Virus record (IMG/VR): IMGVR_UViG_3300030102_004528
Span: 1-38,389 of that record
Length of the DNA: 38,389 nt
Reading direction: 5' to 3' (one strand)
Origin: a virus
The notes beneath the pieces are model-generated. The model saw nothing but the letters and a program-made list of their open reading frames with translations, did not search any database and had not been told where the DNA came from. Below are positions 36 to 31,640 of this stretch, piece after piece. Made by a program: the position numbers and the translations under genes. Position 1 is the stretch's first letter, and each line of letters starts with the position of its first letter.

Positions 36-428
36 TTAGTTATTCGACAAAAAATTTTCTATATTGTTCCAATCTTTAGTTATACTATATTTATTAAAAT
101 CTTCTGGTGTAACACCTTTAGCAAGAGTTTCACCATCTTTACTATGAAACAAATAAACATCTCTATCTTTTTTAACAAGTATAAATACTTTACCGCCATA
201 AAATTCGTATGATTTATGCCATGCAAGTTGTTCTATCGTAAGACCAACTTTAATTTTTGTCTTTCTTCTTTTAGGAGTTTTAACATATTTACCTTCAATC
301 CAACCACAATGACCACCATAAGTAACATAATGAACATCAGGGATCCCTCGTTCTATTTGTGTTTCAATTCTTTGTATAAAAAAATTTTTAAGTTTCTTTC
401 TGATCTGTGTCCAGAGTGTCTTTTCCAT
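36..428 (-). CDS. VRR-NUC / PD-(D/E)XK-like nuclease
   Basis: Small protein of 130 residues with the layout of phage PD-(D/E)XK nucleases of the VRR-NUC or Holliday-junction-resolvase kind. A GIPDV motif near residue 28 supplies the metal-binding Asp. It is followed by a strand ending in WIEGK (the E-x-K pair), a TIEQLAWH helix start and a GGKVFILVK strand. The usual E-L-K is E-G-K here. Such nucleases resolve branched DNA or degrade host DNA; which one applies here cannot be read from the sequence. The start lies inside the 3' end of the NAD synthetase gene (41-base overlap), so it is the last gene of the leftward operon in this window. Confidence 0.75.
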   Translation of the reverse strand: MEKTLWTQIRKKLKNFFIQRIETQIERGIPDVHYVTYGGHCGWIEGKYVKTPKRRKTKIKVGLTIEQLAWHKSYEFYGGKVFILVKKDRDVYLFHSKDGETLAKGVTPEDFNKYSITKDWNNIENFLSNN

Positions 429-2426: not shown

Positions 2427-4280
2427 TCATTTTGCTGTACCCCAATTACTTCCTTTCTCAACATCTACTTCTAAAGGTACACTTATTTCTACACAATTTT
2501 TCATAATATGTATAGCTTCATTTAAACATTTTTGTTGTAATTTATCAACAGAAAAATCTAATTCATCATGTATAGTTAATTTTAAATCAATATAATCTAA
2601 ATATCCATCTTCCCATATTTTTAACATTGCTGCTTTTGTAATATCTGCAGAGCTACCTTGTATCAAAGCATTTAAAGCAGTATGAGTATAAGCTCTTTTT
2701 AATTCTTGTTTATGATATTTAGTTGATGCTTCTGATAATGGATATGCTTTTTGTCCCCACTCATCTCTTGGTTCCCATAAATCAAATCTTCTTTTTCTAC
2801 CTAATAAAGTTTTTATGTAACCTCTGGTGCTTGCAACATGAGATACTTGTCTTGATAATTCTTTAACAAATGGTACTTTACCATGATAATTATTAAATAA
2901 TTCATAAGCTTGATCTAATTCTAAACCTAATTCAGCAGCAAGTTTTTTATTTCCCATACCATAAAATAAACCTAAATTAATAGTTTTGGCTTGTTTTCTA
3001 GGTATACCAGCCATTTTAGCTACCATAGAATGAAAGTCTGTTTTAGGATTATTTAGATATTCTTTTTGTAATGACATTGCTGTATCCATTAATTTTAGAC
3101 TAGCATAATGTACTAACACTCTTGGTTCTTGTTGTGCATAATCACAAGCTACCCAATCGTGATTTTCTTCTGGTAAAAACAAACTTCTGATCATCGGACC
3201 AAGTTCTGGATCTCTCGCAGGCACTTGTTGTAGATTAGGATATTGAGAGCTAAATCTACCTGTAACAGTACCCATAGGATTAAAGCTACAATATATTCTT
3301 CCATTCTTAGCTTTATCTAGAATCATGTTTTTAATAAATGTATTTCTAATCTTGTCTAACTTTCTTATTTGTAATATAGTTTTAGAAACGTCATCAATTT
3401 GAGTTTCCAACCAACTCGCAGTGAAACTCGGAGTTCCTTTTGCGGTGTGGTTATACTGAATCGAATTATTATCATATGCTTGTTTTAGTGAAGCATTTGC
3501 CCATACATTAACTTCACTTCCTCCAAGTCTATTTAGTATTGATTGATGATCTTGTTGTTTTTTTTCTAATTCGTCATACAATTCTTCTGCTCTAGAAATG
3601 TTTACTCGTACTCCACCTTTTCGCATATGAAATAATAAAGGTATTAATCTTGATTCAAATACAACAATACTTTGTACTTGTTCTCTTTCAATTCTTGGCT
3701 GTTGTTTTAGAAAAATATCTAAAGTCAATTTTGCATCTGCTTTAGCATACTCAGCAACTTCGTTTGCGTGTAATCTCCACAAGCTTTCTTTTACTTTAGC
3801 ACGCTTTCCAAACTTAGCGATCACTGCAGTTTCTAATTCAACTTCATACTTAGATTTTCTCAAATAAAATTTGGCAAGTGAATCTAAAGAATACTTTAAT
3901 TTATTTTCATCTAATAAATGTTCAATAGTTTGAATATCGAAAATCCTATGATACTTACTAAGGGTAAGTCTATTATCCAGTGAATAAAGCCACTCTACGT
4001 CATACATTGCGTTAGCAAATACCATTGAAATACGTTTTTCTTCACATCTGTTATAAATGTATTTAATAAATCTAATTACTTTTTCTTTGTCTAAATTACC
4101 TCCGCCTTGATGACCGATAGGATAATATTCATTTAAACCTGTATCTGTTGCAATAGATATGCCTGCTACGTGACCATCTTTTCTAAAACCTCCAGGTCCA
4201 TGTGTCTTTAGTTTAGGATCATGTGTTTCTGTATCTATAGCAATATAAGTTGCTGTATCTATTTTATTTAAATTAAACAT
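2427..4280 (-). CDS. Family A DNA polymerase with 3'-5' exonuclease
   Basis: T7-like replicative polymerase of 617 residues without a 5'-3' exonuclease domain. The DEDDy proofreading domain is intact: AIDTETHDP (ExoI), NAMYDVEWL (ExoII) and YAKADAKLT (ExoIII with Tyr). Polymerase motif A reads DYAQQEPRV, motif B RKQAKTINLGLFYG and motif C IHDELDFSV, so the catalytic Asp residues and the motif B Arg and Lys are present. The residue matching E. coli Pol I Phe762 is Leu. The start chosen is the ATG at 4280, which overlaps the upstream deaminase stop as TAATG. The reading frame is open a further 22 codons upstream, but that stretch lies inside the deaminase gene. The gene is embedded in a nucleotide-modification operon. 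Confidence 0.96.
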   Translation of the reverse strand: MFNLNKIDTATYIAIDTETHDPKLKTHGPGGFRKDGHVAGISIATDTGLNEYYPIGHQGGGNLDKEKVIRFIKYIYNRCEEKRISMVFANAMYDVEWLYSLDNRLTLSKYHRIFDIQTIEHLLDENKLKYSLDSLAKFYLRKSKYEVELETAVIAKFGKRAKVKESLWRLHANEVAEYAKADAKLTLDIFLKQQPRIEREQVQSIVVFESRLIPLLFHMRKGGVRVNISRAEELYDELEKKQQDHQSILNRLGGSEVNVWANASLKQAYDNNSIQYNHTAKGTPSFTASWLETQIDDVSKTILQIRKLDKIRNTFIKNMILDKAKNGRIYCSFNPMGTVTGRFSSQYPNLQQVPARDPELGPMIRSLFLPEENHDWVACDYAQQEPRVLVHYASLKLMDTAMSLQKEYLNNPKTDFHSMVAKMAGIPRKQAKTINLGLFYGMGNKKLAAELGLELDQAYELFNNYHGKVPFVKELSRQVSHVASTRGYIKTLLGRKRRFDLWEPRDEWGQKAYPLSEASTKYHKQELKRAYTHTALNALIQGSSADITKAAMLKIWEDGYLDYIDLKLTIHDELDFSVDKLQQKCLNEAIHIMKNCVEISVPLEVDVEKGSNWGTAK

Positions 4281-4744
4281 TAGTTTGTCTTTCCTATTAA
4301 ATATTTTAAATTTATATATGTATAATTTCTTTGAGACTTTTCCCACAATTCTCTAGCTTTAGTATGAACATATCTTTCTCCAAAAATTATTTGATTAGCG
4401 GATGTATTTAAAAGAAGTTTTATACAATGAATACAAGGTTCTAATGTAGTATAAACTCTATCAATGTCATAAACATCTTTACATTGTAGTAATGCATTTT
4501 GCTCTGCATGTATTGCTTCGCACTTATCTAAATCTTTTCCACTTTCAGAAGTAGAACCAGAACACGGATTATCTATGCAATGTTCAAATCCAGAAGGATT
4601 ACCATTATATCCTGTAGCTATCACATGATTTTTTTTATTTACAAATACACAACCAACTTTTCTCCTAGCACAAGTTCCTCTTTCAGAAACTAATTTAGCC
4701 ATTCTTAAAAAATAAAAATCTGCTGGTGGTCTATAATTATCCAT
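4280..4744 (-). CDS. dCMP deaminase
   Basis: Deoxycytidylate deaminase of 154 residues (ComEB / T4 cd type), converting dCMP to dUMP. The zinc site is visible as HAE at residues 79-81 and PCIHC at 103-107. An extra Cys/His-rich insertion (EHCIDNPCSG) before it is typical of dCMP deaminases with a second zinc. The ATG at 4744 was preferred to an earlier in-frame start at 4780 because the protein then begins with the family-typical RPPADFYFLRMA and overlaps the preceding gene by only 8 bases. It is coupled to the polymerase by TAATG. T4 pairs the same enzyme with dCMP hydroxymethylase in its dNTP-synthesis complex. Confidence 0.92.
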   Translation of the reverse strand: MDNYRPPADFYFLRMAKLVSERGTCARRKVGCVFVNKKNHVIATGYNGNPSGFEHCIDNPCSGSTSESGKDLDKCEAIHAEQNALLQCKDVYDIDRVYTTLEPCIHCIKLLLNTSANQIIFGERYVHTKARELWEKSQRNYTYINLKYLIGKTN

Positions 4745-5573
4745 AAAGAAGGTAATTAAGCCTTTCTGATAACATACCATTAGGTCTTATCTCTGTACCT
4801 TCTAAATCTGCCATTTCTTCTAAAATTTTAATAAATTTTAAAGGTCTATCTTTATATTTATCAATAAGATTATTTAAAGAAATTTCAGATTTATCATCAA
4901 AATGAGATGTAAAAACACTATCTAATTTTTTGTAATCAGTTTCATAAATATGTCTACTACCGGCTTGAATAGTTAATTCACCTAATTTACATTTAACTCC
5001 TAATTTATTTAAATGTAATGCAATAAAAAAAGATATAGCACTAAAATTAAAAGTATCATATGGTACACCTAACCAAGCATCGTTACTTCTCATATTAGCA
5101 ATAGTATGTAACCATAATTCATCGCTTGCTTCTCTTAAAAAAAATTGTAAAGTAAGTGTACATGGAATATCTTTACTTGATCTAGGATTTTCTCTCCATA
5201 TACTAATTACTGCTTGTCTACTATCTTGATCAGTGATTAATGTCTTAACTACATAACCCCATTGAGTAATTATTTTAGGTCCATATGCACCAAAAAAAGT
5301 TTCACCATCGTCACTAAATCTTGTAATTCCTCCTACATATTTACTTACGCTTTCTACATCGTTCTTACCTTGAAGCATCCATGTAGCTTCACCAAACATA
5401 AATGGATAAGATAGTTTTCTTTCTGGTAAAGTAATAATAGGATCATCCATATCAACTTTCCAAGTATGATTTATTTTTTCGCTTATTTTTAAATCTCTTG
5501 GTTTACAAATAAAATCTGGTTGACGATACACGTCCCATAACATTTTTTTATAATTTAAATTTATATCTTTCAT
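4737..5573 (-). CDS. ThyA-family dCMP hydroxymethylase (or thymidylate synthase)
   Basis: Thymidylate-synthase-fold enzyme, 278 residues. The catalytic Cys138 is in IPCTLTLQF, the phosphate-binding segment is DSRQAV at 117-122, and RSND is at 162-165. The key point is residue 173: the block reads RSNDAWLGVPYD, with Asp where thymidylate synthases have Asn (E. coli Asn177, L. casei Asn229). T4 dCMP hydroxymethylase has Asp179 at this place, and CT-T-Q after the catalytic Cys and NMRSND also look T4-like rather than TS-like. It probably acts on dCMP to give 5-hydroxymethyl-dCMP; methylation of dCMP, or ordinary dTMP synthesis, is not excluded. Coupled by TAATG to the kinase-like gene upstream. 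Confidence 0.85.
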   Translation of the reverse strand: MKDINLNYKKMLWDVYRQPDFICKPRDLKISEKINHTWKVDMDDPIITLPERKLSYPFMFGEATWMLQGKNDVESVSKYVGGITRFSDDGETFFGAYGPKIITQWGYVVKTLITDQDSRQAVISIWRENPRSSKDIPCTLTLQFFLREASDELWLHTIANMRSNDAWLGVPYDTFNFSAISFFIALHLNKLGVKCKLGELTIQAGSRHIYETDYKKLDSVFTSHFDDKSEISLNNLIDKYKDRPLKFIKILEEMADLEGTEIRPNGMLSERLNYLLYG

Positions 5574-6130
5574 TAATTTATTATCCTATCTATAAATTCG
5601 TCCATTTTATGTCCATCTTTATAAAAATCATATCTTATGAAATCGGCTCTTTCTTTAAGAGGAGACAATGATCCAATAAAATTTTTACTTTCCATTCTTG
5701 AATACCAAGCGTGATAATAACCATCTATGACTTTATCAATATCCCAATATTCTTCATTTCTTTTAGTCCTGTTTATTCTATGATTTTCTTTTACTTGTGT
5801 TTTATCTTCTGGTATACACCAAATATATTTTGCATTTCTTTCTTTTAATTTATTATACAAATATCTAGGATTATAACTAGGTCCTTTACTTCTAATATAA
5901 GAATAAAATTGTTCACTAGGCCAATGTCTATCTAATAAAACTAACTTACCTATCATTTGTTTTTTTATAGCCATTCTTGCAGTGGCTGTATGCCATAATA
6001 ACATATTCTTATGCACTCTTAAATGCATGTAAAAATTATTCTTAAATCTTCTTCTGATTCTATCAATAAGTGTAGTTTTACCTACACCATCTGGTCCTTC
6101 TACAATTAAGATTTTTCCTCTAATAAACAT
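5573..6130 (-). CDS. Thymidylate kinase-like (deoxy)nucleoside monophosphate kinase
   Basis: P-loop kinase of 185 residues with the thymidylate-kinase layout: Walker A GPDGVGKTT at residues 12-20, a DRH motif at 67-69 inside LLDRHWPSEQFYS, and an Arg-rich lid-like segment (NHRINRTKRNEEYW). It should phosphorylate a deoxynucleoside monophosphate. Between a dCMP-hydroxymethylase-like gene and a glycosyltransferase gene, its substrate may be 5-hydroxymethyl-dCMP (the job of T4 gp1) or dTMP; the sequence does not decide. Its start overlaps the end of the glycosyltransferase gene by 25 bases, and its stop forms TAATG with the next start. Confidence 0.82.
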   Translation of the reverse strand: MFIRGKILIVEGPDGVGKTTLIDRIRRRFKNNFYMHLRVHKNMLLWHTATARMAIKKQMIGKLVLLDRHWPSEQFYSYIRSKGPSYNPRYLYNKLKERNAKYIWCIPEDKTQVKENHRINRTKRNEEYWDIDKVIDGYYHAWYSRMESKNFIGSLSPLKERADFIRYDFYKDGHKMDEFIDRIIN

Positions 6131-7152
6131 CTAAAAAATTCTTTCGTTCTTTCTCTATTCCAAAATTTAGTTTTTAAAACATCCATATGTTCTCTTGAAA
6201 TATTTAATAATTCTTCTTTATTAGAATTTTCTATTTTATTTAAATCAGAAGTTAAACCTAAAATTTTAGCTTCTTCAGGATGAGCATAAACTATACATTT
6301 AGCATCTAATGCCATTTTGTATCTTACTCTCCACCAGCCTGATCCTTTAGCTGTATGATAATGTGGTGGACTTATTATTCCCCATACTTTTCTATATTCT
6401 TGAAACATTTCATGTTCTTTTAATCGTGTTTGACCTTCTCTTTGATTTCCAAAAGTTTTAATTCTCCATTTAAAATTTTGACCATTTAGCCAACCTTGTT
6501 TACTTACAAGACTAGCACAAATCCAAGCATTTTCTTTTATTCCATCATTAGGTGCAAAATTATTTAATAAATCTTCTTGATTATCAGGACTTTTTAAATA
6601 TGTATCTGTATAAGCAGAAGGATCCCAATTAATTATTTCTTTTGCTTTCATACCTAATTCTTCGTAATTACCACCGTCATAAGCTGGAATTAACAATTTA
6701 TGAGGCCATTCTTTATGAGCAAAATGATCTACTAAATCCTCTATTTCTTTTTTAAATGGTTGAGCCTCGTCCCAATATACTTTACCTACAGGATTTCCGG
6801 CTTTAGAAAGTTTTTTCCATATTCTCCAATGACCATTACTAAATGTTCTAAATCCACTTACTGAATCTTTTGTTTGCCAGTCATCAATAGAAACTATTGC
6901 ATCAGGTCTTTTTATAATTGTATATGCTGCACCGTACCAATATCTTGCTGAAAGACTATTAGGTCCGAATACATAAACAAAAACTTTATCATACATTGAT
7001 ACATCTTCTCCCGGGACAATAGCTTTTTGAGTTACTTCATGTCCTAATTCTTCTAAAACTTTTGGTAAAATTCTTGCTGATGTAGCAATATTTAATGGTG
7101 ATCTAGCTGTACCAATTGATAAAGCATTAAATCCTGTTACTAATATCTTCAT
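6106..7152 (-). CDS. GT-B glycosyltransferase resembling T4 DNA beta-glucosyltransferase
   Basis: Protein of 348 residues, almost the length of T4 beta-glucosyltransferase (351). From memory of that protein, matching blocks in the same order are the N-terminal MKILVTG strand, an IDD at 89-91 near T4 catalytic Asp100, FGNQREGQTR at 235-244 (T4 FGNAREKQFK), and RVRYKMALDA at 275-284 (T4 RVWETMASDA, containing UDP-binding Arg269). The T4 Glu272 position is Tyr here. A role in transferring a sugar to 5-hydroxymethylcytosine in DNA fits the neighbours. Another acceptor or sugar is possible, and the match needs a profile search. It overlaps the MazG-like gene by 26 bases. Confidence 0.68.
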   Translation of the reverse strand: MKILVTGFNALSIGTARSPLNIATSARILPKVLEELGHEVTQKAIVPGEDVSMYDKVFVYVFGPNSLSARYWYGAAYTIIKRPDAIVSIDDWQTKDSVSGFRTFSNGHWRIWKKLSKAGNPVGKVYWDEAQPFKKEIEDLVDHFAHKEWPHKLLIPAYDGGNYEELGMKAKEIINWDPSAYTDTYLKSPDNQEDLLNNFAPNDGIKENAWICASLVSKQGWLNGQNFKWRIKTFGNQREGQTRLKEHEMFQEYRKVWGIISPPHYHTAKGSGWWRVRYKMALDAKCIVYAHPEEAKILGLTSDLNKIENSNKEELLNISREHMDVLKTKFWNRERTKEFFRCLLEEKS

Positions 7153-7582
7153 TTTGTTTTTCCCTTTCTTCTTCTATAATTTGTTCAATATCTGGTGCAG
7201 TCCAACCTTTAGGTTTGACTACATCAAATGATGTACCTCGTTTTTTAGATTTGCTTTTAGTTCTTATCTTACTCATATTTGCTTTCTGTACCGCATCCCA
7301 TGCTTTATTAAAAGGTAAGTTAAAAAGCCATGCTGTACCTAAAGCAATATAAACTATATCTACAAGAGCATCTAAAGCTCCTGCTGCATCTTTTTTAGTA
7401 ATTGCTTGAGTATATTCTGCTAATTCTTCCATTAAAAAAGATGTTCTAAAATTTACGAGTTCATTATTATCAGGTATTCCTACCTTTTCGTTTTTTTCAA
7501 ATTTATATTTTTTATGAAAAGCATCAATATCTCTTATTAGTGTATCTTTATCCATATCTTCAAACATACCAGAATTTGTCAT
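7127..7582 (-). CDS. MazG-like all-alpha NTP pyrophosphohydrolase
   Basis: All-alpha NTP pyrophosphatase (MazG / PRA-PH group), 151 residues. The metal-binding signature is EELAEY at 52-57 followed by DALVDIVY with Asp71 and Asp75. The tail KKRGTSFDVVKPKGWTAPDI is shared by phage members of the group. Substrate is unknown. Such enzymes hydrolyse dNTPs or alarmones, and the T4 dCTPase/dUTPase gp56 belongs to the same broad superfamily, so a dCTPase supplying dCMP to the hydroxymethylase is attractive here. The ATG overlaps the upstream methyltransferase stop as TAATG, which supports this start over the internal Met6 or Met10. Confidence 0.85.
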   Translation of the reverse strand: MTNSGMFEDMDKDTLIRDIDAFHKKYKFEKNEKVGIPDNNELVNFRTSFLMEELAEYTQAITKKDAAGALDALVDIVYIALGTAWLFNLPFNKAWDAVQKANMSKIRTKSKSKKRGTSFDVVKPKGWTAPDIEQIIEEEREKQNEDISNRI

Positions 7583-8637
7583 TAAAGCAAAGCCTCTTGT
7601 TCTGGAACTTTTCTATAATCTACAATTTTTAATTCTTCTTTCGCTTTCGTTTTATCTTCTATACTATTTTTAATAATTCTTGCTACATATTCAGCTACAG
7701 GTGGCATTACACCTCTTGCAATTTGTGATCCGATAGAAGAAGCAGGTCCTTCCCATTTGTAATCTACAGGATACCCTGCCATATAAGCTAATTCCTTATG
7801 ACCAAATAATCTATCTTCTGTAGGATGTATATAAAAACCTCCAGCAATAACTGGTATATGTGCATCTGATTTTAATCTCCATTTCATAAATTGTGGTCTA
7901 CCTTTAACTCCACCACGCATACCACCTCTAACCCAAGTTTCTGGTGGATTATATCTTTCCCATGTAACCCTTAAACTTTCTCCTTGTTTACAATGTTTAA
8001 GATAAGGTTTTTCATTTTCACCTAATTTCATTAAATGACCAATGTCACCATGTTCTTTTTTAAAAGAACTTAATACTTCACCTGCAGTTGGTAATGGTTG
8101 AAAGTTTAAACCGCCTGCATTTAAATTATATTTAGTTGCTATAAAGAAAAATCTTTTTCTTGAATGATTTAAACCAGTAAAGCCACCATCAATTAAAAGA
8201 TGAGTTACTTGATAACCAAGTTTATTAGCTTCTTCAGTCAATTCCATGATCATCGGTCGACCGCCATTTTTACTATAAACTCTTGGAACAGATTCAATTG
8301 CTATAGCTTTAGGTTTTAATTCTTTTAATAAATTAAAACTATCTCTCCAACATTTAATTCTAGGATCATCTCTCCATGCTCCTGCACCTTTTTGAGCTCC
8401 ACCTAAATTAGACCAAGGCGCACATGGTGGATTACAGTAAACAAAATCTATTTTATTTTTATATTTTTCTCTTGGCCAATCATCCTCACCTTCGTAAATT
8501 GGTATGTTAGGAAAATTAGCTTTAAATGTTTTTTTGTATAATCCAGGTTTCATTTCAAAATGAGCTTGAACGTCAAAATGTTTACTAACACCAATGGTAA
8601 AACCACCGGCAAAAATGTAAGTTCCTAATGCTTTCAT
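7582..8637 (-). CDS. C5-cytosine DNA methyltransferase homologue
   Basis: DNA (cytosine-5) methyltransferase, 351 residues. Motif I is degenerate (FAGGFTIGVSKHF, residues 9-21). Motif IV is NPPCAPWS at 69-76 with the catalytic Cys72, motif VI is ESVPRV at 115-120 (ENV in most members), motif VIII is NHSRKRFFFIA at 157-167, and motif X is GSQIARGVMPPVAEYVA. The specificity region between VIII and X is short. It should methylate, or otherwise attack, C5 of cytosine in DNA. No restriction endonuclease is next to it, so it is probably self-protection or modification. It sits immediately upstream of the MazG/glycosyltransferase/hydroxymethylase genes, which is odd if cytosine is already replaced by hydroxymethylcytosine. 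Confidence 0.88.
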   Translation of the reverse strand: MKALGTYIFAGGFTIGVSKHFDVQAHFEMKPGLYKKTFKANFPNIPIYEGEDDWPREKYKNKIDFVYCNPPCAPWSNLGGAQKGAGAWRDDPRIKCWRDSFNLLKELKPKAIAIESVPRVYSKNGGRPMIMELTEEANKLGYQVTHLLIDGGFTGLNHSRKRFFFIATKYNLNAGGLNFQPLPTAGEVLSSFKKEHGDIGHLMKLGENEKPYLKHCKQGESLRVTWERYNPPETWVRGGMRGGVKGRPQFMKWRLKSDAHIPVIAGGFYIHPTEDRLFGHKELAYMAGYPVDYKWEGPASSIGSQIARGVMPPVAEYVARIIKNSIEDKTKAKEELKIVDYRKVPEQEALL

Positions 8638-10165: not shown

Positions 10166-10714
10166 TTATTTCATAAATATTTGAACAGATATTCTAGGCA
10201 TAACGTCTGTTATTACTGGCACTACTTTATGTGGAATAGGCGATTTAATAATCAACAAAGAGTTTCCTATAATTGGAATATATCCTGATCCTTTAATATG
10301 AGAAAACAAAAGTTCTCCACCCCATTGTTTACTCCATCTTTTATTTACATAATAAGTAATACCATATTTCCAGTTGCTATCATCGTGCCAATTAATACCT
10401 GCTCCTTTTTTCATATAATGAATCAAAAAAACATTTTTTTCAACATCGTCTAATTTAAAAAAAGGATTGTGTTTTATTAAAGTTAAAAGTTTTTGAAAAG
10501 GTCTATAAGTTAAAGGTTTATTTAACATTATATCGCTTTTTAAAGGTGGTTGTATATTTTCATATAAAAACTTAGGCCAATCTTTTTCAATAGAATGTAA
10601 TTTTATTTTATTTCTATCTTTAATTATAGAGTTATGAATATTTTTATATGTACTGTAATCTAAAAAATTATCTATCCACCATACTTTACCTGGAATATGT
10701 AAACGTAAATTCAT
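10166..10714 (-). CDS. 2OG-Fe(II) oxygenase
   Basis: 2-oxoglutarate/Fe(II) dioxygenase of the prolyl-4-hydroxylase-like group, 182 residues. Iron ligands are H110 and D112 in NWHDDSNWK and H162 in IPHKVVPV; R174 in PRISVQIF is placed to bind 2-oxoglutarate. The middle has the usual ITYYVNKRW...GGELLF. The substrate is unknown. It differs from the five oxygenases at 26326-29387 in that it sits among DNA-replication genes, between the DEDDh exonuclease and the UvrD-like helicase. A nucleic-acid substrate (repair, or oxidation of 5-methylcytosine) is therefore conceivable, but no TET-specific motif was recognised. Confidence 0.85.
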   Translation of the reverse strand: MNLRLHIPGKVWWIDNFLDYSTYKNIHNSIIKDRNKIKLHSIEKDWPKFLYENIQPPLKSDIMLNKPLTYRPFQKLLTLIKHNPFFKLDDVEKNVFLIHYMKKGAGINWHDDSNWKYGITYYVNKRWSKQWGGELLFSHIKGSGYIPIIGNSLLIIKSPIPHKVVPVITDVMPRISVQIFMK

Positions 10715-25789: not shown

Positions 25790-26326
25790 ATGCCATATGA
25801 ATCATTAGAACAAGCTAAATTATTTCACAATGCTAATTCTTTAAATTGGTCAGGTGAAGCTTTAGCTGAATATAAACATCAAATCAAAGCTTTAATAGAT
25901 GAAAAAAAACCAAAATCCATATTAGATTATGGATGTGGAAAAGCTCTTTTTCATAAACATTTTTTACCAACTATATTTAGAGGCATAATGATTTTTTGTT
26001 ATGATCCTGCAGTTAAAGATTTTGAAAATAAACCACAAAAAGAAATAGATTTAACCCTTTGTATAGACGTTATGGAACATGTACAAGAAGATAAAATTGA
26101 TGAAGTTTTAAAAGATTTATTTACTAATACTAAATTTGTATTTTTAACCATTACATGTTATGATGCAATTCAAAAATTACCTAATGGTAAAAATGCTCAC
26201 TATACTGTAAAACCACCTAGTTGGTGGAATGATAAGCTTAAACCTTATGATGGTAAATATCAAGTTGTTTTTCAAGAAAAAAGAGAAAGAAGTAAAATAG
26301 TAAGAAATCCAGATCCAAAGGATTAA
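25790..26326 (+). CDS. Class I SAM-dependent methyltransferase
   Basis: 178 residues with motif I as SILDYGCGKALFHKHF, the acidic ribose-binding Asp in CYDPAV, and motif IV-like LTLCIDVMEHVQED. A C-terminal block NAHYTVKPPSWWNDKL is distinctive. I recall similar proteins in marine phages, often near glycan or oxygenase genes. The acceptor is unknown. First gene of a four-gene rightward operon; its stop overlaps the next start as TAATG. No Shine-Dalgarno is seen before the ATG. Confidence 0.83.
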   Translation: MPYESLEQAKLFHNANSLNWSGEALAEYKHQIKALIDEKKPKSILDYGCGKALFHKHFLPTIFRGIMIFCYDPAVKDFENKPQKEIDLTLCIDVMEHVQEDKIDEVLKDLFTNTKFVFLTITCYDAIQKLPNGKNAHYTVKPPSWWNDKLKPYDGKYQVVFQEKRERSKIVRNPDPKD

Positions 26327-26805
26327 TGAGTGCAAAAGTAATTAAAAATTTTTTACCTCTAGATTTAATTAAGTTTTTAGAAAAATCTTTTTTATATGAC
26401 GTACCTCATTCTTTTGGACATGTTTCTGATCCTAATAGTGAAAATAATATTAATTTTTATAATTCAAATTTAAATATGAATGACACTATGCTTAGATATA
26501 TAGTAGAAAAATTGAGAGAACACTTTACATTTAAAGATGTTTTAAGATCCTATATTAATGTTCAGCATTATAAAATGGATGGAAACTGGCATACTGATGA
26601 TGGTGCTTTAACTATATTACTAATGATTACAAAAACTTTAAAAAAAGGAGAGGGTTGTTTTCAAATAAAAGAAAATGACAATATTACAAATTATGATTTT
26701 GAGCAGAATACTTTAATTGGATTCAATGCAAAATCTTTACATAGAGGATTAGCTCCAGATAATCTTCATAACCCTAGAATAACTTTAGCATTCAAAACTT
26801 TATGA
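26326..26805 (+). CDS. 2OG-Fe(II) oxygenase
   Basis: 159 residues. Iron ligands H89 and D91 lie in NWHTDDGALTILLM and distal H139 in SLHRGLAP; R151 in PRITLAFK should bind 2-oxoglutarate. The short double-stranded beta-helix is complete. The substrate is unknown. It is coupled to the methyltransferase by TAATG and to the ParB-like gene by ATGA, so these products are made together and may act on one target. Confidence 0.82.
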   Translation: MSAKVIKNFLPLDLIKFLEKSFLYDVPHSFGHVSDPNSENNINFYNSNLNMNDTMLRYIVEKLREHFTFKDVLRSYINVQHYKMDGNWHTDDGALTILLMITKTLKKGEGCFQIKENDNITNYDFEQNTLIGFNAKSLHRGLAPDNLHNPRITLAFKTL

Positions 26806-27146
26806 AAATTCTAAAAGCAAAAATTAAATGGTTTCCAAAAAAAATAATAAATGTAACCAAAGATAATTTAAAAATTGATTGGGAACAAAAACATTTAGAT
26901 CAAGTAAAGAAGTTTATGAAAAAAGATGGTCTTATGTTTCCAGGAGTAATTAAAGATGATGAAATTCATTGTGGACATTATAGACTTAAAATAGCAAAAG
27001 AAATGGGTTATGATGGAATAGAAATGTATAACGTAGATACATTTAAAGAAGTATTATATTTAACACAATTTTCAGAATTATGTTATAAACACTATAAAGA
27101 ATTAAAAGAATTAAAAATAAAACATAAAATTAAAAATTATTTATGA
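26802..27146 (+). CDS. ParB/sulfiredoxin-like domain protein
   Basis: 114 residues. The middle, GLMFPGVIKDDEIHCGHYRLKIAKEMGYDGIEMYNV, follows the ParB N-terminal pattern: a preferred-value strand, a G-H-x-R turn (here GHYR) and the A-x-x-x-G helix. Phage ParB-like proteins of this kind may bind or cut DNA, or act as CTP/ATP-dependent enzymes; there is no helix-turn-helix domain as in true ParB. The Lys-rich termini suggest nucleic-acid contact. ATGA overlaps at both ends show translational coupling. Confidence 0.65.
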   Translation: MKILKAKIKWFPKKIINVTKDNLKIDWEQKHLDQVKKFMKKDGLMFPGVIKDDEIHCGHYRLKIAKEMGYDGIEMYNVDTFKEVLYLTQFSELCYKHYKELKELKIKHKIKNYL

Positions 27147-27739
27147 TAAAGTTTAATAACAAAGATAAATTAAATCCTACTAATAATTCACTATATGTTT
27201 CTTATTTAAGAAATGTACAAATAAGTTGTGGAACCTATCCTTATCCAGAAGATATACATAATTTAATTATTGAAATAAAAAACAATTTAAGTCAAAAATT
27301 AGAGAAAGCAACCAATGTTTATGGAGGAATGACTGATTGGGAGTTTTTTAATAATCACCCAATATTTTTAAAATTTTTAACTTGGTTTATAAATACTCAT
27401 CAAATTTCTAATCATGAATTAAAAAACTTTCATGAATTTAAATTTTTAAAAGAAGCATGGGGAAATGAATTAAAAAAAGGTCATAGTGTTCAAATACATG
27501 ATCATTTTGATTATCATGGAATACTCTATTTGACTAAAGGTAGTCCTTTAATAGTCCCTGAATTAAATTTAACTATACTTCCAGAACCTGGTGATTATTA
27601 TTTTTTTCCACCTAATATTAAACATTATGTACCAGAAGTTCAAACAGATGAAACAAGGTATTCTGTTGTATTCAATATTGCTCTTAAATTAGATTGGGAT
27701 AAAAAGAAAAGATTAAATTTGAATAATGAAGTTAGTTAG
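27143..27739 (+). CDS. 2OG-Fe(II) oxygenase / cupin-like hydroxylase
   Basis: 198 residues. VQIHDHFDYHGILYLTKG carries the metal site (H119, H121, D123), followed by PGDYYFFPPNIKHYVPEV with distal H161 and R172 in ETRYSVVFNI. The pattern fits the putative 2OG-Fe(II) oxygenase family found in cyanophages and marine bacteria. Which His is a ligand is uncertain. The N-terminal 100 residues are helical and not assigned. Last gene of the rightward operon; its 3' end overlaps the 3' end of the convergent oxygenase gene by 8 bases, leaving no room for a terminator. Confidence 0.78.
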   Translation: MIKFNNKDKLNPTNNSLYVSYLRNVQISCGTYPYPEDIHNLIIEIKNNLSQKLEKATNVYGGMTDWEFFNNHPIFLKFLTWFINTHQISNHELKNFHEFKFLKEAWGNELKKGHSVQIHDHFDYHGILYLTKGSPLIVPELNLTILPEPGDYYFFPPNIKHYVPEVQTDETRYSVVFNIALKLDWDKKKRLNLNNEVS

Positions 27740-28337
27740 GCAATGCTAACATCCATGATGTTACAATATATTTTGTTTCTTTTAATGGTGGATTACCTCT
27801 ATGAACATATGGAAAACCTGAAGGCCATATAGCAATTCTGCCTGTTTTAGGTTTTACTCTTTTTTTCTGAAATAAAAATTCAGTTTCTCCTGCTTCTTCC
27901 ACATCATTTAAATAAATTGTATAAGCAAGAACTCTATTAAACATTTCACTATGTCCTTGTTTTTCTACATGCCAAGCATGATATCCTTGACCAGGTTTTG
28001 TTTTTTGAATTTTTACAGTTGTAAAATTAATATCTTTTACTCCACAAAAAGATAAGATTTGAGTTTCTTTAACATATTCTCTTAATGCTTGTTCGAAATT
28101 TATCATTAAGGTATTTAGAGCTCCTTTCCAAACTTCTAATGTATCTCCAGTTAACATAAGAGTTTCATCATTAAATCTGGTAACATCAGCACTATGATAC
28201 TGACTTCTTTTAAGGGTTTTATTAAGTTTATTTTGATCTTCATAATATTTTATAGCTTTATTACAAATTGTATCGTCTAAATACCCATCATATATTCCTA
28301 TAAAATCTTCAATACACTGTGTTTTTTTCACGAACAT
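27732..28337 (-). CDS. 2OG-Fe(II) oxygenase
   Basis: 201 residues, with the iron site H123-x-E125 in YHAWHVEKQG (Glu instead of Asp), the strand pair LAYTIYLNDV...GETEFLF, and distal H179 in FPYVHRGNPP, followed by KYIVTSWML. Start choice: the ATG at 28337 is only one base from GGAG, whereas an in-frame GTG at 28331 has seven bases of spacing, so translation may begin at the GTG (two residues shorter). It overlaps the preceding oxygenase gene by 29 bases. Substrate unknown. Confidence 0.82.
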   Translation of the reverse strand: MFVKKTQCIEDFIGIYDGYLDDTICNKAIKYYEDQNKLNKTLKRSQYHSADVTRFNDETLMLTGDTLEVWKGALNTLMINFEQALREYVKETQILSFCGVKDINFTTVKIQKTKPGQGYHAWHVEKQGHSEMFNRVLAYTIYLNDVEEAGETEFLFQKKRVKPKTGRIAIWPSGFPYVHRGNPPLKETKYIVTSWMLALPN

Positions 28338-28848
28338 TCTCCTCTATATTATTTCTAAATGGACCATTTCTATCTACATAATGAAAAAAAACTTGAGGAT
28401 TATCTAATCCTTTAAAAGGTTTTCTTCCGTGTGGTACATCGTGTCCTAAATACATTAAAGCGTCTCCAACTTTTATGTTAATCCATTTATTATTCATATG
28501 AATAGGCCATTTAACTCCACAATTATAAATAGGAGCTGTAATACTAATTTCACATTCAGGTCTATCTGTATGTGTTTTTAGAATAGATCCATATATATAA
28601 TATCTCCAAAAAGAATAAGTTTGAAACAATTTTAAACCTGCTTCTTTTTCTGCTCTTTCTTTTTTCAAGAATAAAAAAGTATTCATTAATGAATCTTTAT
28701 AAAAAGAAGGACAAATTGGAGATTGAGTATCTGATACAAAATTTTCTTCAAGTATTTTTTGTTTACAATATTCTTTTAAAATTAGTAACTCTTTTTTATC
28801 AAAGAAGTTTTTAATATAAATATATTTTTTATTTTTTATATTAGCCAT
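28309..28848 (-). CDS. 2OG-Fe(II) oxygenase-like protein
   Basis: 179 residues. Iron ligands H93 and D95 in LKTHTDRPECEISIT, distal H140 in GHDVPHGRKPF, then PQVFFHYVDRNGPF. The Arg normally found after the distal His is not clear; Q152 is near that place. This DVPHGR...HYVDRNG pattern recurs in hydroxylase-like proteins of marine phages. Unknown substrate. It overlaps the neighbouring oxygenase genes at both ends. Confidence 0.75.
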   Translation of the reverse strand: MANIKNKKYIYIKNFFDKKELLILKEYCKQKILEENFVSDTQSPICPSFYKDSLMNTFLFLKKERAEKEAGLKLFQTYSFWRYYIYGSILKTHTDRPECEISITAPIYNCGVKWPIHMNNKWINIKVGDALMYLGHDVPHGRKPFKGLDNPQVFFHYVDRNGPFRNNIEENVREKNTVY

Positions 28849-29387
28849 GCAACTATACTATATCTCTTTCCTTTAGTTATTGGTTCAATTTTATGAGGAT
28901 ATAAAAAATTACTTGGAAAAAAAACTGTTGTTCCTTTTTTCATTTTTATTGTTTTAATAACATTTTCATATTTCATATCATAAAAATTTAAATCGCCACC
29001 TTCATAATCGTTATTTAAATTTATTATACAGCTTAATCTTCTGAAAGACGTTGGTCCTTCATCTATATGAGTTTCATATTTTCCGCCAGGAGAATATTGT
29101 AATAAATCTACTTGACATATTTTAATTAATTCTATAAATTTAAATTTAGCTGTATAATTTACTAAAATTTTATTTATTTCTTGAGCAATATAACAAAACA
29201 AAATTCTTTCTGACATATTAGAATTTTTATTTAAAGTTCTACCTTCAACATTTCTAATATTTAAATACAAACCTCCACTTACATTTAAAGGTTTTAATTC
29301 TACTTTATTAATATATTTGATAATACGTTCTATTAATTGTTCACTAAATAAATTATCTATTTGTAAAATAGCATCTGTTACTTTCAT
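28836..29387 (-). CDS. 2OG-Fe(II) oxygenase, PKHD-type prolyl hydroxylase-like
   Basis: 183 residues with a textbook P4H-like core: H107 and D109 in KYETHIDEGPT, LSCIINLNNDYEGGDLNFYD, FFPSNFLYPHKIEPITKGKRYSIVAWL giving distal H165 and R175 as the 2-oxoglutarate ligand. It is the clearest of the six oxygenases. PKHD-type enzymes hydroxylate prolyl or other residues; the phage target is unknown. First of three leftward oxygenase genes that overlap in series. Confidence 0.88.
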   Translation of the reverse strand: MKVTDAILQIDNLFSEQLIERIIKYINKVELKPLNVSGGLYLNIRNVEGRTLNKNSNMSERILFCYIAQEINKILVNYTAKFKFIELIKICQVDLLQYSPGGKYETHIDEGPTSFRRLSCIINLNNDYEGGDLNFYDMKYENVIKTIKMKKGTTVFFPSNFLYPHKIEPITKGKRYSIVAWLI

Positions 29388-29864: not shown

Positions 29865-30455
29865 TTATGTTTTTATAATATATATCAAAGTTAAGTAAGG
29901 TTGTAAAACAGAAGTTGCATTACCTGCCATATTACCAGTGATTGGATGTGTATGACCACTTCCACCACCAAAAGAAGGACCTATATTTCCGTTTGGAGCA
30001 GGGTCCATGTTACATTCTACTATAGCAGATCCAGCTCTCGATCCACCACCTCTTATACCTGATTGAGCTGGATTAGCATTATGATTGTGAGAAGGCATTT
30101 CAGGAGTTGATACAGCAGTCGAAGCTGTAGTTCCTCCTAAAGTTCCATTAGATGCAACTGTATTAGCACCACCTGTTGAAGCCAAAGCTTTTCCAGGAGA
30201 AGCACTTACACAACAATCATCTTGTAAATCTGGAAGAGTAAAAGTTGTAGATCCATTTCCAGCCCCATAAGTAGTTCCAATTACTGCGAACAATGCTGAA
30301 TATGTAGACCTAGAAACATTTGCTCCATTACATTCTAAAAAACCTGAAGGTATCGAAGAATCACCCCATGGAACAATTAAACCAGTATTTACTCCTTGAA
30401 CATTTGTTAAATTTGCTCCTGAGTAATCATATCTAGTTGCTTCATAATTTGCCAT
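29865..30455 (-). CDS. Tail collar-domain fibre protein (copy 3 of 3)
   Basis: 196 residues with a phage tail-collar domain: VPWGDSSIPSGFLECNG, then STTFTLPDLQDD. The first 100 residues and the last 20 (SVLQPYLTLIYIIKT) match the two neighbouring copies closely; residues about 100-170 differ. H-x-H pairs (PSHNHN and GHTHP) flank the variable part, as in metal-binding tips of T4-like long fibres. This copy has two adjacent Cys after LQDD and a Cys in VECNMDP that the others lack. Probably a trimeric, receptor-contacting tip. Confidence 0.88.
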   Translation of the reverse strand: MANYEATRYDYSGANLTNVQGVNTGLIVPWGDSSIPSGFLECNGANVSRSTYSALFAVIGTTYGAGNGSTTFTLPDLQDDCCVSASPGKALASTGGANTVASNGTLGGTTASTAVSTPEMPSHNHNANPAQSGIRGGGSRAGSAIVECNMDPAPNGNIGPSFGGGSGHTHPITGNMAGNATSVLQPYLTLIYIIKT

Positions 30456-30464
30456 TTTTTTCTC

Positions 30465-31049
30465 CTAAGTCTTAATAATATATTTAATTGTTAAATAAGG
30501 TTGTAACACTGAATTTGCAACACCAGTGTAAGTACCTCCAGCTGCATGACTATGTGCTCCATCTCCTCCTGTTGAACCAAATTGAATTGATGTAGCTTGA
30601 TTAATAATTGCAGGATTAGTAGCATTACTAACAGCTTGAACATAATTAGCACCAATAGTTAAGTTTCCTGGAAAGTGGTTATGTGTAGGTAATTCAGGAG
30701 TAGTTAAAGTATGATTGGCTGCAGTAACACTTACATTACCTGTTGAAGCTACAGTATTTGCTCCACCTGTTGAAGCTAAAGCTTTTCCAGGTGATCTTCC
30801 CATAGCCACTTTATCTTGTAAATCTGGCAAAGTAAAAGTCGTTGAACCATTTCCAGAACCATATGTAGTTCCGACAACAGCAAATAAACCTGAATAAGTG
30901 CTTCTAGATACTGCCGCTCCATTACATTCTAAAAAACCCGATGGAACAGTCGTATCAGACCATGGAACAATTAAACCAGTATTGACTCCTTGAATACCTG
31001 TTAAATCGCTTCCATCAAAATTATATTTAGTTGCTTCGTAATTTGCCAT
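30465..31049 (-). CDS. Tail collar-domain fibre protein (copy 2 of 3)
   Basis: 194 residues, paralogue of the genes on either side. The collar domain VPWSDTTVPSGFLECNG and FTLPDLQDKVAMGRSPGKALAS is conserved; residues about 105-165 (including ANYVQAVSNATNPAIINQ) are unique to this copy, flanked by PTHNHF and GAHSHA. The C-terminal beta strand NSVLQPYLTIKYIIKT is shared. Nine bases separate it from each neighbour's start and stop, so the three form one translational cluster. Role: fibre tip or adhesin variant. Confidence 0.88.
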   Translation of the reverse strand: MANYEATKYNFDGSDLTGIQGVNTGLIVPWSDTTVPSGFLECNGAAVSRSTYSGLFAVVGTTYGSGNGSTTFTLPDLQDKVAMGRSPGKALASTGGANTVASTGNVSVTAANHTLTTPELPTHNHFPGNLTIGANYVQAVSNATNPAIINQATSIQFGSTGGDGAHSHAAGGTYTGVANSVLQPYLTIKYIIKT

Positions 31050-31058
31050 AATAATTCC

Positions 31059-31640
31059 TTAAGTTTTAATTACATACATTATTGTTAAATATGGTTGTAA
31101 TACTGAAGTTGCATCTCCAGTGAAATTTCCACCTGCAGTATGGTTATGTGCTCCATCTGAACCTACATTAGGCATAGTAAAACTAGCAGTTCCTTGAGTT
31201 CCAGATTGACCCATTCCACCAGGTCCATATACACTACGAGTATTATTACCAGTAGGAAAAGGTTGGTGCGTATGAGCAGGTAATGTTGATTCAGTTAAAG
31301 TAGTATTTCCGATACCTGCTTGAGTGCTTCCTTGTGCTGTAACTGTGTTAGCACCTCCAGTTGAAGCTAGAGCTTTTGAAGGTGATTTTCCAACTACTAT
31401 ATCATCTTGTAAATCAGGTAATGTAAAAGTCGTTGAACCGTTTCCTGATCCATAGGTTGTTCCTATGACAGCAAATAAAGCTGAATAAGTTGATCTTGAA
31501 ACTGTTGCTCCATTACATTCCAAAAAACCAGAAGGTGCTGTACTATCAGACCAGGGAAGAATTAATCCTGTGTTAACACCTTCTACATCAGCAAGATTAG
31601 CACCATCGAAATTGTACCTTGTAGCTTCGTAATTAGCCAT
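31059..31640 (-). CDS. Tail collar-domain fibre protein (copy 1 of 3)
   Basis: 193 residues, first of the tandem three in transcription order. Conserved: LPWSDSTAPSGFLECNG, FTLPDLQDDIVVGKSPSKALAS and the C-terminal SVLQPYLTIMYVIKT. The variable middle holds RSVYGPGGMGQSGTQG, between PAHTHQ and GAHNHT. It starts three bases after the preceding tail-fibre gene, with ATAAGGAG as ribosome site. Probably assembles with, or alternates with, the other two copies at the tail. Confidence 0.88.
   Translation of the reverse strand: MANYEATRYNFDGANLADVEGVNTGLILPWSDSTAPSGFLECNGATVSRSTYSALFAVIGTTYGSGNGSTTFTLPDLQDDIVVGKSPSKALASTGGANTVTAQGSTQAGIGNTTLTESTLPAHTHQPFPTGNNTRSVYGPGGMGQSGTQGTASFTMPNVGSDGAHNHTAGGNFTGDATSVLQPYLTIMYVIKT

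Follow-up and report, generated by a model that had tools for sequence, protein, structure and literature searches.

Gene block and its conservation

We analyzed a 38,389-nucleotide stretch of DNA from an uncultured virus (IMG/VR record IMGVR_UViG_3300030102_004528), here referred to as the window. Within it, six genes are packed tightly on one strand at positions 4280 to 8637, and neighboring genes, the adjacent polymerase included, overlap by 1 to 67 nt (Table 1). An initial annotation had described contiguous, coupled genes here; all of the genes that it named are present on the minus strand, and its identification of a C5-cytosine methyltransferase (C5-MTase) homologue, a MazG-like enzyme, a deaminase, and a family A polymerase agrees with the Pfam matches. 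Gene order is kept in close IMG/VR relatives, as far as the locus of each extends. The conserved unit in these relatives runs past the six genes into the polymerase, a sugar dehydrogenase, and NAD synthase, so that the earlier description of a minimal system at 4280 to 8637 was too narrow; these coordinates exclude both the polymerase and the genes conserved beyond it. When the region past the block was examined in eight relatives for a further sugar gene, an SDR-type epimerase-like gene turned up intact only in L041 and broken or partial in L004, with no pattern general to the relatives.

Table 1. Genes of the conserved unit in the window
Feature	Positions	Strand	Matches and remarks
C5-cytosine methyltransferase homologue, 351 aa	7582..8637	-	PF00145 (DNA_methylase) 3e-28
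MazG-like NTP pyrophosphatase, 151 aa	7127..7582	-	PF01503 (PRA-PH) 1e-11; phrog_671 5e-30
GT-B glycosyltransferase, 348 aa	6106..7152	-	phrog_14998 (unknown function); predicted hmC-DNA glycosyltransferase
P-loop (d)NMP kinase, thymidylate-kinase-like	5573..6130	-	TMPK 1.5e-5, below cut-off; predicted hmdCMP kinase
ThyA-family enzyme, dCMP hydroxymethylase type, 278 aa	4737..5573	-	PF00303 (Thymidylat_synt) 1.4e-17
dCMP deaminase, 166 aa	4280..4780	-	PF00383 9e-21; phrog_174 8e-38
Family A DNA polymerase with 3'-5' exonuclease, 639 aa	2427..4346	-	PF00476 1e-69; PF01612 7e-10
Nucleotide-sugar (UDP-glucose/GDP-mannose family) 6-dehydrogenase, 426 aa	1143..2423	-	PF03721/PF00984; TIGR03026 NDP-sugDHase over cut-off
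NAD synthase NadE, 258 aa	388..1164	-	PF02540 4e-47; TIGR00552 over cut-off
Putative VRR-NUC-like ORF, end of conserved block	36..428	-	Position kept in relatives; name is a reading; outside proposed pathway

The kinase had been called dNMP kinase-like. A kinase is indeed present, and its model (pLDDT 86) folds like thymidylate-type NMP kinases rather than specifically like T4 gp1, with YorR and thymidylate kinases as the best folds (E ~1e-4). The MazG-like protein is 39% identical to AXL3_30 of Stenotrophomonas phage AXL3 and is a possible dCTPase. HMO-2011-type phages, which carry ThyX and MazG (PMC9038755), were considered as kin of the window virus, but its polymerase is only ~40 to 44% identical to that of any isolate (nearest isolate, 43.7%), too distant to place the virus among them.

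ThyA-family enzyme and glycosyltransferase

The catalytic pair of the ThyA homologue is Cys138 and Thr139, and its key Asp is residue 173, in PYDTF; these three residues correspond to Escherichia coli positions 146, 147, and 177. The resulting C-T-D signature is common to the 69 sequences surveyed (window, glycosyltransferase-linked relatives, T4 gp42, and others), and position 147 is Thr, not His, in the window enzyme and in gp42. In contrast to the window enzyme, td-type controls have Asn177, and no Asn177 member was found among the surveyed glycosyltransferase-linked enzymes of the window and T4 types. Metagenomic contigs with and without C modification are best told apart by residues 177 and 147, the modified ones having mostly Asp177, and the substitution N177D is known to shift preference from dUMP to dCMP (both in PMC8670742, the latter as cited there). 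The best PDB match is the CMP 5-hydroxymethylase MilA (1e-27), with thymidylate synthase matches at 1e-9 or weaker, and every dCMP/HMase marker tested is present. Comparison with gp42 adds shared RSND and HIY/HVY motifs (HIY in the window). RB69 048c, which shares only 24% identity with the window enzyme, and gp33 of Morganella phage Rgz1 carry RSQN and HVF instead. Identity as an RB69-type 5-hydroxy-dCMP synthase was rejected on this difference, with RSQN/HVF taken as the mark of such synthases by our own criterion, inferred from two sequences; identity as an SPO1-type dUMP hydroxymethylase was rejected because the key position is occupied by Asn in the SPO1-type enzyme. The signature residues indicate that the window enzyme is probably a dCMP hydroxymethylase, in keeping with the Asp noted in the initial annotation.

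The glycosyltransferase (GT) has no Pfam family, and a PDB sequence search with it returned no match. Its AlphaFold model (pLDDT 85, pTM 0.85) adopts a GT-B fold, in which D90, D91, G235, E246, R275, R277, and E294 are invariant. A resemblance to T4 beta-glucosyltransferase (BGT) had been claimed, and in structure it stands: BGT is the top PDB match (Foldseek E 2.9e-5; VIA Z 16.7, rmsd 4.0, 286 aligned). At the sequence level, no clear profile match to T4 BGT, AGT, or RB69 ORF003c was found (hhalign probability 16% over 49 columns for BGT). SenB is tied with BGT (Z 16.3 versus 16.7) and other GT-B enzymes fit nearly as well, so the acceptor of the GT may be a different one. Fold and genome context together suggest that it is probably a transferase acting on 5-hydroxymethylcytosine (hmC) in DNA. 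A function is thereby proposed for a phage family that is labeled unknown in PHROGs, is absent from Pfam, and has at least 457 relatives in IMG/VR, and the enzymes of the block become candidates for new hmC-labeling tools. Some T4-like phages have arabinose genes without a known arabinosyltransferase (PMC8056088), and the GT family, present in Rgz1, is a candidate for the missing transferase.

Partners of the glycosyltransferase and its probable sugar donor

Gene families were counted over 41 GT-bearing viral contigs and 41 random contigs. A ThyA homologue occurs in 35 of the former and 4 of the latter (Fisher p 2e-12) and a C5-MTase in 27 and 3, respectively (p 4e-8), p values that are indicative only because GT-bearing contigs are related to each other. 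The association of the GT with both families is not due to chance. It extends to ThyA homologues in unrelated phages, and in phage C48C1 the same GT family neighbors a TET/JBP oxygenase. A TET/JBP source of hmC in the relatives was rejected, as Tet_JBP exceeded the cut-off in none of the 41 (one weak match); the 2OG-like ORFs scanned in the window matched other 2OG families or none, not TET/JBP.

The C5-MTase homologue keeps motif IV (PPC) and has ESV instead of ENV in motif VI; its match to the NCBIfam dcm superfamily (2e-16) is below cut-off. Close relatives show NPPC, IESV, and SRKR, such that the PC of motif IV, the Glu of motif VI, and the Arg of motif VIII are present. In more distant relatives it is the most conserved protein of the unit, and in two contigs, L052 and L054, it is fused to the GT. 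Judged by co-occurrence and fusion, the C5-MTase homologue is part of the pathway proposed below, yet there would seem to be no need for it once every C is hmC. The puzzle is open to testing: in genomes expected to have hydroxymethylated cytosines already, a C5-MTase goes together with the GT and is in some cases even fused to it.

The dehydrogenase has NAD and central domains and the catalytic Cys motif GGGCHPRD. It scores alike against GDP-Man and UDP-Glc dehydrogenases in the PDB (3e-26 to 1e-24); the TIGR03026 match is at the subfamily level, and equivalog models are far below cut-off. Its position after the polymerase is conserved, and the NadE gene overlaps it. The window lineage has the dehydrogenase without a decarboxylase (no UDP-glucuronate decarboxylase match in the 39.7-kb record of the window virus, which may be incomplete). 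An L043-type sister lineage has a UDP-glucuronate decarboxylase (7.5e-90 to human UXS1) without the dehydrogenase, and contigs L053 and L068 encode the two side by side. Given this swap between lineages and the adjacency in two others, UDP-xylose or UDP-glucuronate is the probable donor, as read from the neighboring genes. In other phages the same GT family lies beside a UDP-galactopyranose mutase or, in Rgz1, an arabinose-5-phosphate isomerase, for which the window proteins scanned gave no Pfam match. The sugar of each lineage may thus be predicted from the gene neighboring its GT. Mutase and dehydrogenase are both missing from some contigs that carry the GT, so the GT may need no dedicated sugar gene.

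Proposed pathway, alternatives, and known systems

We consider it likely that the block encodes a cytosine hypermodification pathway in which hmC is made at the nucleotide level and a sugar is then added by the GT; the earlier proposal is supported to this extent. The MazG-like enzyme would lower dCTP, giving dCMP, which the ThyA homologue would convert to 5-hydroxymethyl-dCMP; the kinase would begin its conversion to the triphosphate, the phage polymerase would build hmC into DNA, and the GT would add the sugar. The dehydrogenase would supply UDP-glucuronate, to be used directly or converted to UDP-xylose by a decarboxylase such as sister viruses encode, a step suggested by replacement and adjacency in relatives. 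Surplus dCMP may pass to dUMP and dTMP via the deaminase. More tentatively, the modified base may be xylosyl- or glucuronosyl-hmC, with a GT donor that changes with the neighboring gene (Galf, arabinose, or xylose/GlcA) and a C5-MTase that is not a conventional protective methylase but an obligate partner acting on DNA on or next to hmC. To our knowledge, neither base has yet been reported.

The same pathway could use plain glucose from host UDP-glucose, as in T4, with the dehydrogenase and NadE as unrelated metabolic genes. The rank of BGT among structural matches and the contigs lacking mutase and dehydrogenase fit this reading, which we nevertheless think rather unlikely: unrelated phages have three kinds of sugar gene next to or close to members of this GT family, and on the GT tree the dehydrogenase/decarboxylase label appears at three distinct positions. 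The "T4-like glucosyl" label of the initial annotation is too narrow: the GT has no clear sequence match to BGT, and its neighboring sugar genes suggest UDP-GlcA/UDP-xylose for the window and Galf or arabinose for relatives. It is unlikely that cytosine modification stops at hmC (or, for residual C, at 5mC made by the C5-MTase) while the GT has another target, e.g., a glycan on the host surface, a virion protein, or a small molecule. The GT-B fold is generic, SenB is a small-molecule glycosyltransferase, and the ThyA homologue occurs in HTVC200P and AXL3, which are absent among the GT-family carriers found; against this stand the overlap of the GT gene with the MazG and kinase genes, the fusion to a DNA C5-MTase, the tie to ThyA homologues in unrelated phages, and the TET/JBP neighbor in C48C1.

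Two further readings concern the ThyA homologue. In an RB69-like chemistry it would make 5-hydroxy-dCMP, and the GT would link the sugar straight to the ring oxygen. RB69-type homologues also have Asp at 177, with a pentose sugar (PMC13390438), and Rgz1 carries an RB69-type ThyA plus this GT family; the motif difference, the low identity to 048c, and the closeness to CMP hydroxymethylase make this quite improbable. That the block merely supplies thymidylate (deaminase, thymidylate synthase, thymidylate kinase, MazG) next to an unrelated GT agrees with database labels reading thymidylate synthase and kinase but is hardly credible in view of Asp177 with Thr147, the lack of Asn177 among the surveyed enzymes, the effect of N177D (PMC8670742), and the association of ThyA with GT and C5-MTase genes.

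Phage T4 encodes dCMP hydroxymethylase (gp42), dCTPase (gp56), dNMP kinase (gp1), beta- and alpha-GTs, and cd, and its hmC is glucosylated. The hypermodification pathway proposed here shares with it a ThyA-family enzyme with Asp177 and Cys, predicted hmC formation at the nucleotide level, a dCMP deaminase, and a GT-B transferase with BGT as its closest solved fold. Unlike T4, the window has a ThyA homologue from another sub-branch, a MazG-like enzyme instead of gp56, a TMPK-like kinase, a GT without detectable sequence homology to BGT, a nucleotide-sugar dehydrogenase, a family A polymerase in a small genome, and a C5-MTase that lacks a T4 counterpart and that the T4 analogy leaves unexplained. 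Phage GT pathways dependent on MT plus 5mYOX (TET/JBP), reportedly described by Pyle et al. in 2024 (Cell Rep 114631, as cited in PMC12619734 and PMC13216743), likewise join a C5-MTase to a DNA GT; for the window, a ThyA-type dCMP enzyme is instead the predicted source of hmC, and none of the 41 relatives has Tet_JBP over cut-off. Arabinosyl-(hydroxy)cytosine systems of RB69/Mosigvirus also combine a ThyA homologue, dedicated sugar-nucleotide genes, and a GT-B transferase but differ in the ThyA motif, in ORF003c, to which the window GT has no similarity, and in having arabinose genes in place of the dehydrogenase.

In sewage phages studied by MetaGPA, which have 5-carbamoyl-hmC, ThyA Asp177 co-occurs with PRA-PH (MazG-like) and dCMP deaminase domains (PMC8670742), with a carbamoyltransferase where the window has a GT. 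AXL3 encodes MazG, kinase, ThyA homologue (C-T-D; 45% identical to that of the window), and deaminase, arranged as in the window. Of 37 restriction enzymes, only 2 cut AXL3 DNA, and the sites of both consist of A and T alone (PMC7504290). We count this resistance as independent wet data for the pathway; it is a digestion pattern rather than a base identity. The AXL3 operon proteins tested gave no match to GT or C5-MTase models, and its methyltransferase is of another family. AXL3_29, which lies at the position of the GT, was rejected as a GT because it is a kinase and, like its neighbors, misses both models. Shewanella phage Thanatos carries a pentose-type sugar on cytosine and encodes a UDP-xylose-forming activity (PMC12838424), there a UDP-xylose pyrophosphorylase in contrast to the dehydrogenase/decarboxylase of the window and its relatives.

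Layout and conservation of the operon

The block of modification genes that the initial annotation had described as a T4-like cytosine hypermodification operon at 4280-8637 is present as described, but those coordinates are too small for the whole unit; the conserved unit also takes in the polymerase, dehydrogenase, NadE and VRR genes. The IMG/VR record containing the window comprises 39,666 bases. From the C5-MTase homologue through the VRR-NUC-like ORF, adjacent genes overlap or lie no more than 3 nt apart, so a single transcript is very likely.

Genes of the conserved unit in the window, in transcription order
Gene	Position	Strand	Remark
Helicase		minus	first of the listed genes, before the C5-MTase homologue
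C5-MTase homologue	8637-7582	minus	
MazG-like	7582-7127	minus	
Glycosyltransferase (GT)	7152-6106	minus	
NMP kinase	6130-5573	minus	
ThyA family	5573-4737	minus	
dCMP deaminase	4780-4280	minus	
Polymerase A	4346-2427	minus	
Nucleotide-sugar dehydrogenase	2423-1143	minus	
NAD synthase	1164-388	minus	
VRR-NUC-like ORF		minus	last gene, after NAD synthase

A GT-based scan of IMG/VR returned 26 loci, and in those of sufficient length the gene order primase-exonuclease-helicase-MTase-MazG-GT-kinase-ThyA-deaminase-polymerase-dehydrogenase-NadE-VRR is identical. One relative, L006, matches the window at 88% for the MTase, 78% for GT, 73% for the polymerase and 65% for ThyA; among the modification genes, the C5-MTase homologue is the best conserved in more distant members. 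We conclude that the block is a predicted cytosine-hypermodification operon with T4-like logic; compared with T4, the transferase family is different, the C5-MTase partner is unexplained and the sugar probably differs. The C5-MTase homologue retains the catalytic Cys and Glu, with ESV replacing ENV, and is fused to GT as one ORF in two loci (L052:4399-7008, 870 amino acids; L054:2-2425, 808 amino acids). Possible roles include conventional methylation of residual cytosine, site-specific action on hmC and DNA targeting for GT.

Nucleotide-level enzymes

The closest solved relative of the ThyA homologue is the CMP 5-hydroxymethylase MilA (1e-27), compared with 1e-9 or weaker for solved true thymidylate synthases. 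Where E. coli ThyA has Cys146, His147 and Asn177, the homologue has Cys, Thr and Asp (C-T-D). In a survey of GT-linked relatives, T4 gp42 and others, C-T-D was found in 69 sequences, C-Y-D in one pelagiphage homologue and C-H-N or C-M-N in four td-type enzymes, with two sequences too short to read; a SPO1-type dUMP hydroxymethylase has Asn at the position equivalent to 177. Metagenomic sorting of cytosine-modified DNA identified positions 177 and 147 as the best discriminators of modified from unmodified contigs, the modified ones having mostly Asp177 (PMC8670742). RB69-type enzymes are now described as 5-hydroxy-dCMP synthases (PMC13390438); these carry RSQN, whereas the window and T4 have RSND. 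The MilA match, C-T-D signature and RSND motif thus make the ThyA homologue look like a dCMP hydroxymethylase, an activity predicted from sequence. Two pelagiphage homologues (L002:19652-20470 of HTVC200P; L001:7730-8488 of AP013540) are annotated as thymidylate synthase, yet have Asp at position 177; because of this residue, they are candidate dCMP hydroxymethylases, and both phages may contain modified cytosine.

The kinase model is nearest to YorR and thymidylate kinases, and its gene position suggests that it acts on hmdCMP. Solved relatives of the MazG-like protein are among DR2231-like enzymes, and we predict that it hydrolyses dCTP; one cyanophage MazG is reported to be highly active on dGTP and dCTP, as cited in PMC9038755. 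Stenotrophomonas phage AXL3 lends independent support: it has, in the same order as the window, MazG (39%), kinase, ThyA homologue (45%, C-T-D) and deaminase. Only 2 of 37 restriction enzymes cut AXL3 DNA, both with A/T-only sites (PMC7504290), a pattern that fits modified cytosine produced through a ThyA of the window-type clade, although guanine modification would also be compatible.

Glycosyltransferase fold and probable sugar donor

GT matches only phrog_14998, whose function is unknown, and none of the Pfam and NCBIfam models. Its AlphaFold model, built with 41 sequences, has a GT-B fold (pLDDT 85, pTM 0.85). T4 beta-glucosyltransferase (BGT) ranked first in both Foldseek (E 2.9e-5) and VIA-align (Z 16.7, rmsd 4.0, 286 aligned), and profile comparison with BGT was weak. 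Because SenB ties with BGT in VIA-align (Z 16.3), the fold alone leaves the acceptor unfixed. Invariant residues include D90, D91, G235, E246, R275, R277 and E294.

Neighboring genes point to the donor. In established biochemistry, dehydrogenase and decarboxylase catalyze the consecutive steps from UDP-Glc to UDP-GlcA to UDP-xylose. The window's dehydrogenase passes the nucleotide-sugar dehydrogenase model, and its catalytic Cys motif is kept in the relatives shown. In the sister lineage L043-L049, a search for the dehydrogenase gave no match, and a gene between exonuclease and helicase matches human UDP-glucuronate decarboxylase (7.5e-90). The two genes are adjacent in two other lineages: one contig (L068) has decarboxylase, dehydrogenase, C5-MTase and MazG-like genes consecutively, and in the other (L053) the pair overlaps and the dehydrogenase is short (266 amino acids). 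When gene content is mapped onto the GT tree, the presence of dehydrogenase/decarboxylase requires 3 changes and that of UDP-galactopyranose mutase 4, far below the numbers for shuffled labels, although near-copies account for part of this. We infer that the donor in the window is UDP-xylose or UDP-GlcA; no decarboxylase was found in the window's own record, so a host enzyme, a missing genome end or GlcA itself must be invoked.

Wider occurrence and other window ORFs

GT homologues at 24-29% identity are found in T4-like phages of Aeromonas, Erwinia, Morganella and Providencia, in actinophages including those of Gordonia, in a spring-water siphovirus and in a Kyanoviridae genome. The mutase gene is next to GT in FBB1, DSL-LC01, Aeromonas phage 25 and C48C1. 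In C48C1 (L037:4586-8033), TET/JBP oxygenase, GT and mutase are consecutive, and the record is without a ThyA homologue or C5-MTase; this cluster could be for base-J-like galactofuranosylation of hmU. Morganella phage Rgz1 (L030:4372-7776) has arabinose-5-phosphate isomerase immediately before its GT homologue, a candidate for the arabinosyltransferase that such phages are said to lack (PMC8056088).

A wider IMG/VR scan found 457 GT relatives, from which 41 records were chosen for co-occurrence counts against 41 random viral contigs selected via an arbitrary 15-mer. ThyA homologues were present in 35/41 GT-bearing records versus 4/41 random contigs, and C5-MTase in 27/41 versus 3/41. The mutase was found in 20 of the GT-bearing records and Tet_JBP above the cut-off in 0/41. 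In one random contig (G062, of L151), a C5-MTase lies less than 4 kb from a weak ThyA homologue (2526-6307), possibly another hypermodification cluster.

Four window ORFs match 2OG-Fe(II) oxygenase families (10166-10714, 27143-27739, 27732-28337 and 28836-29387), a striking count for a small virus. The first of these is unmatched in all 26 GT loci and does not belong to the unit. ORFs at 26326-26805 and 28309-28848 resemble the oxygenases by eye, with no Pfam match. At 29865-31640, three tandem paralogous ORFs of ∼195 amino acids read like tail-collar or fibre domains.
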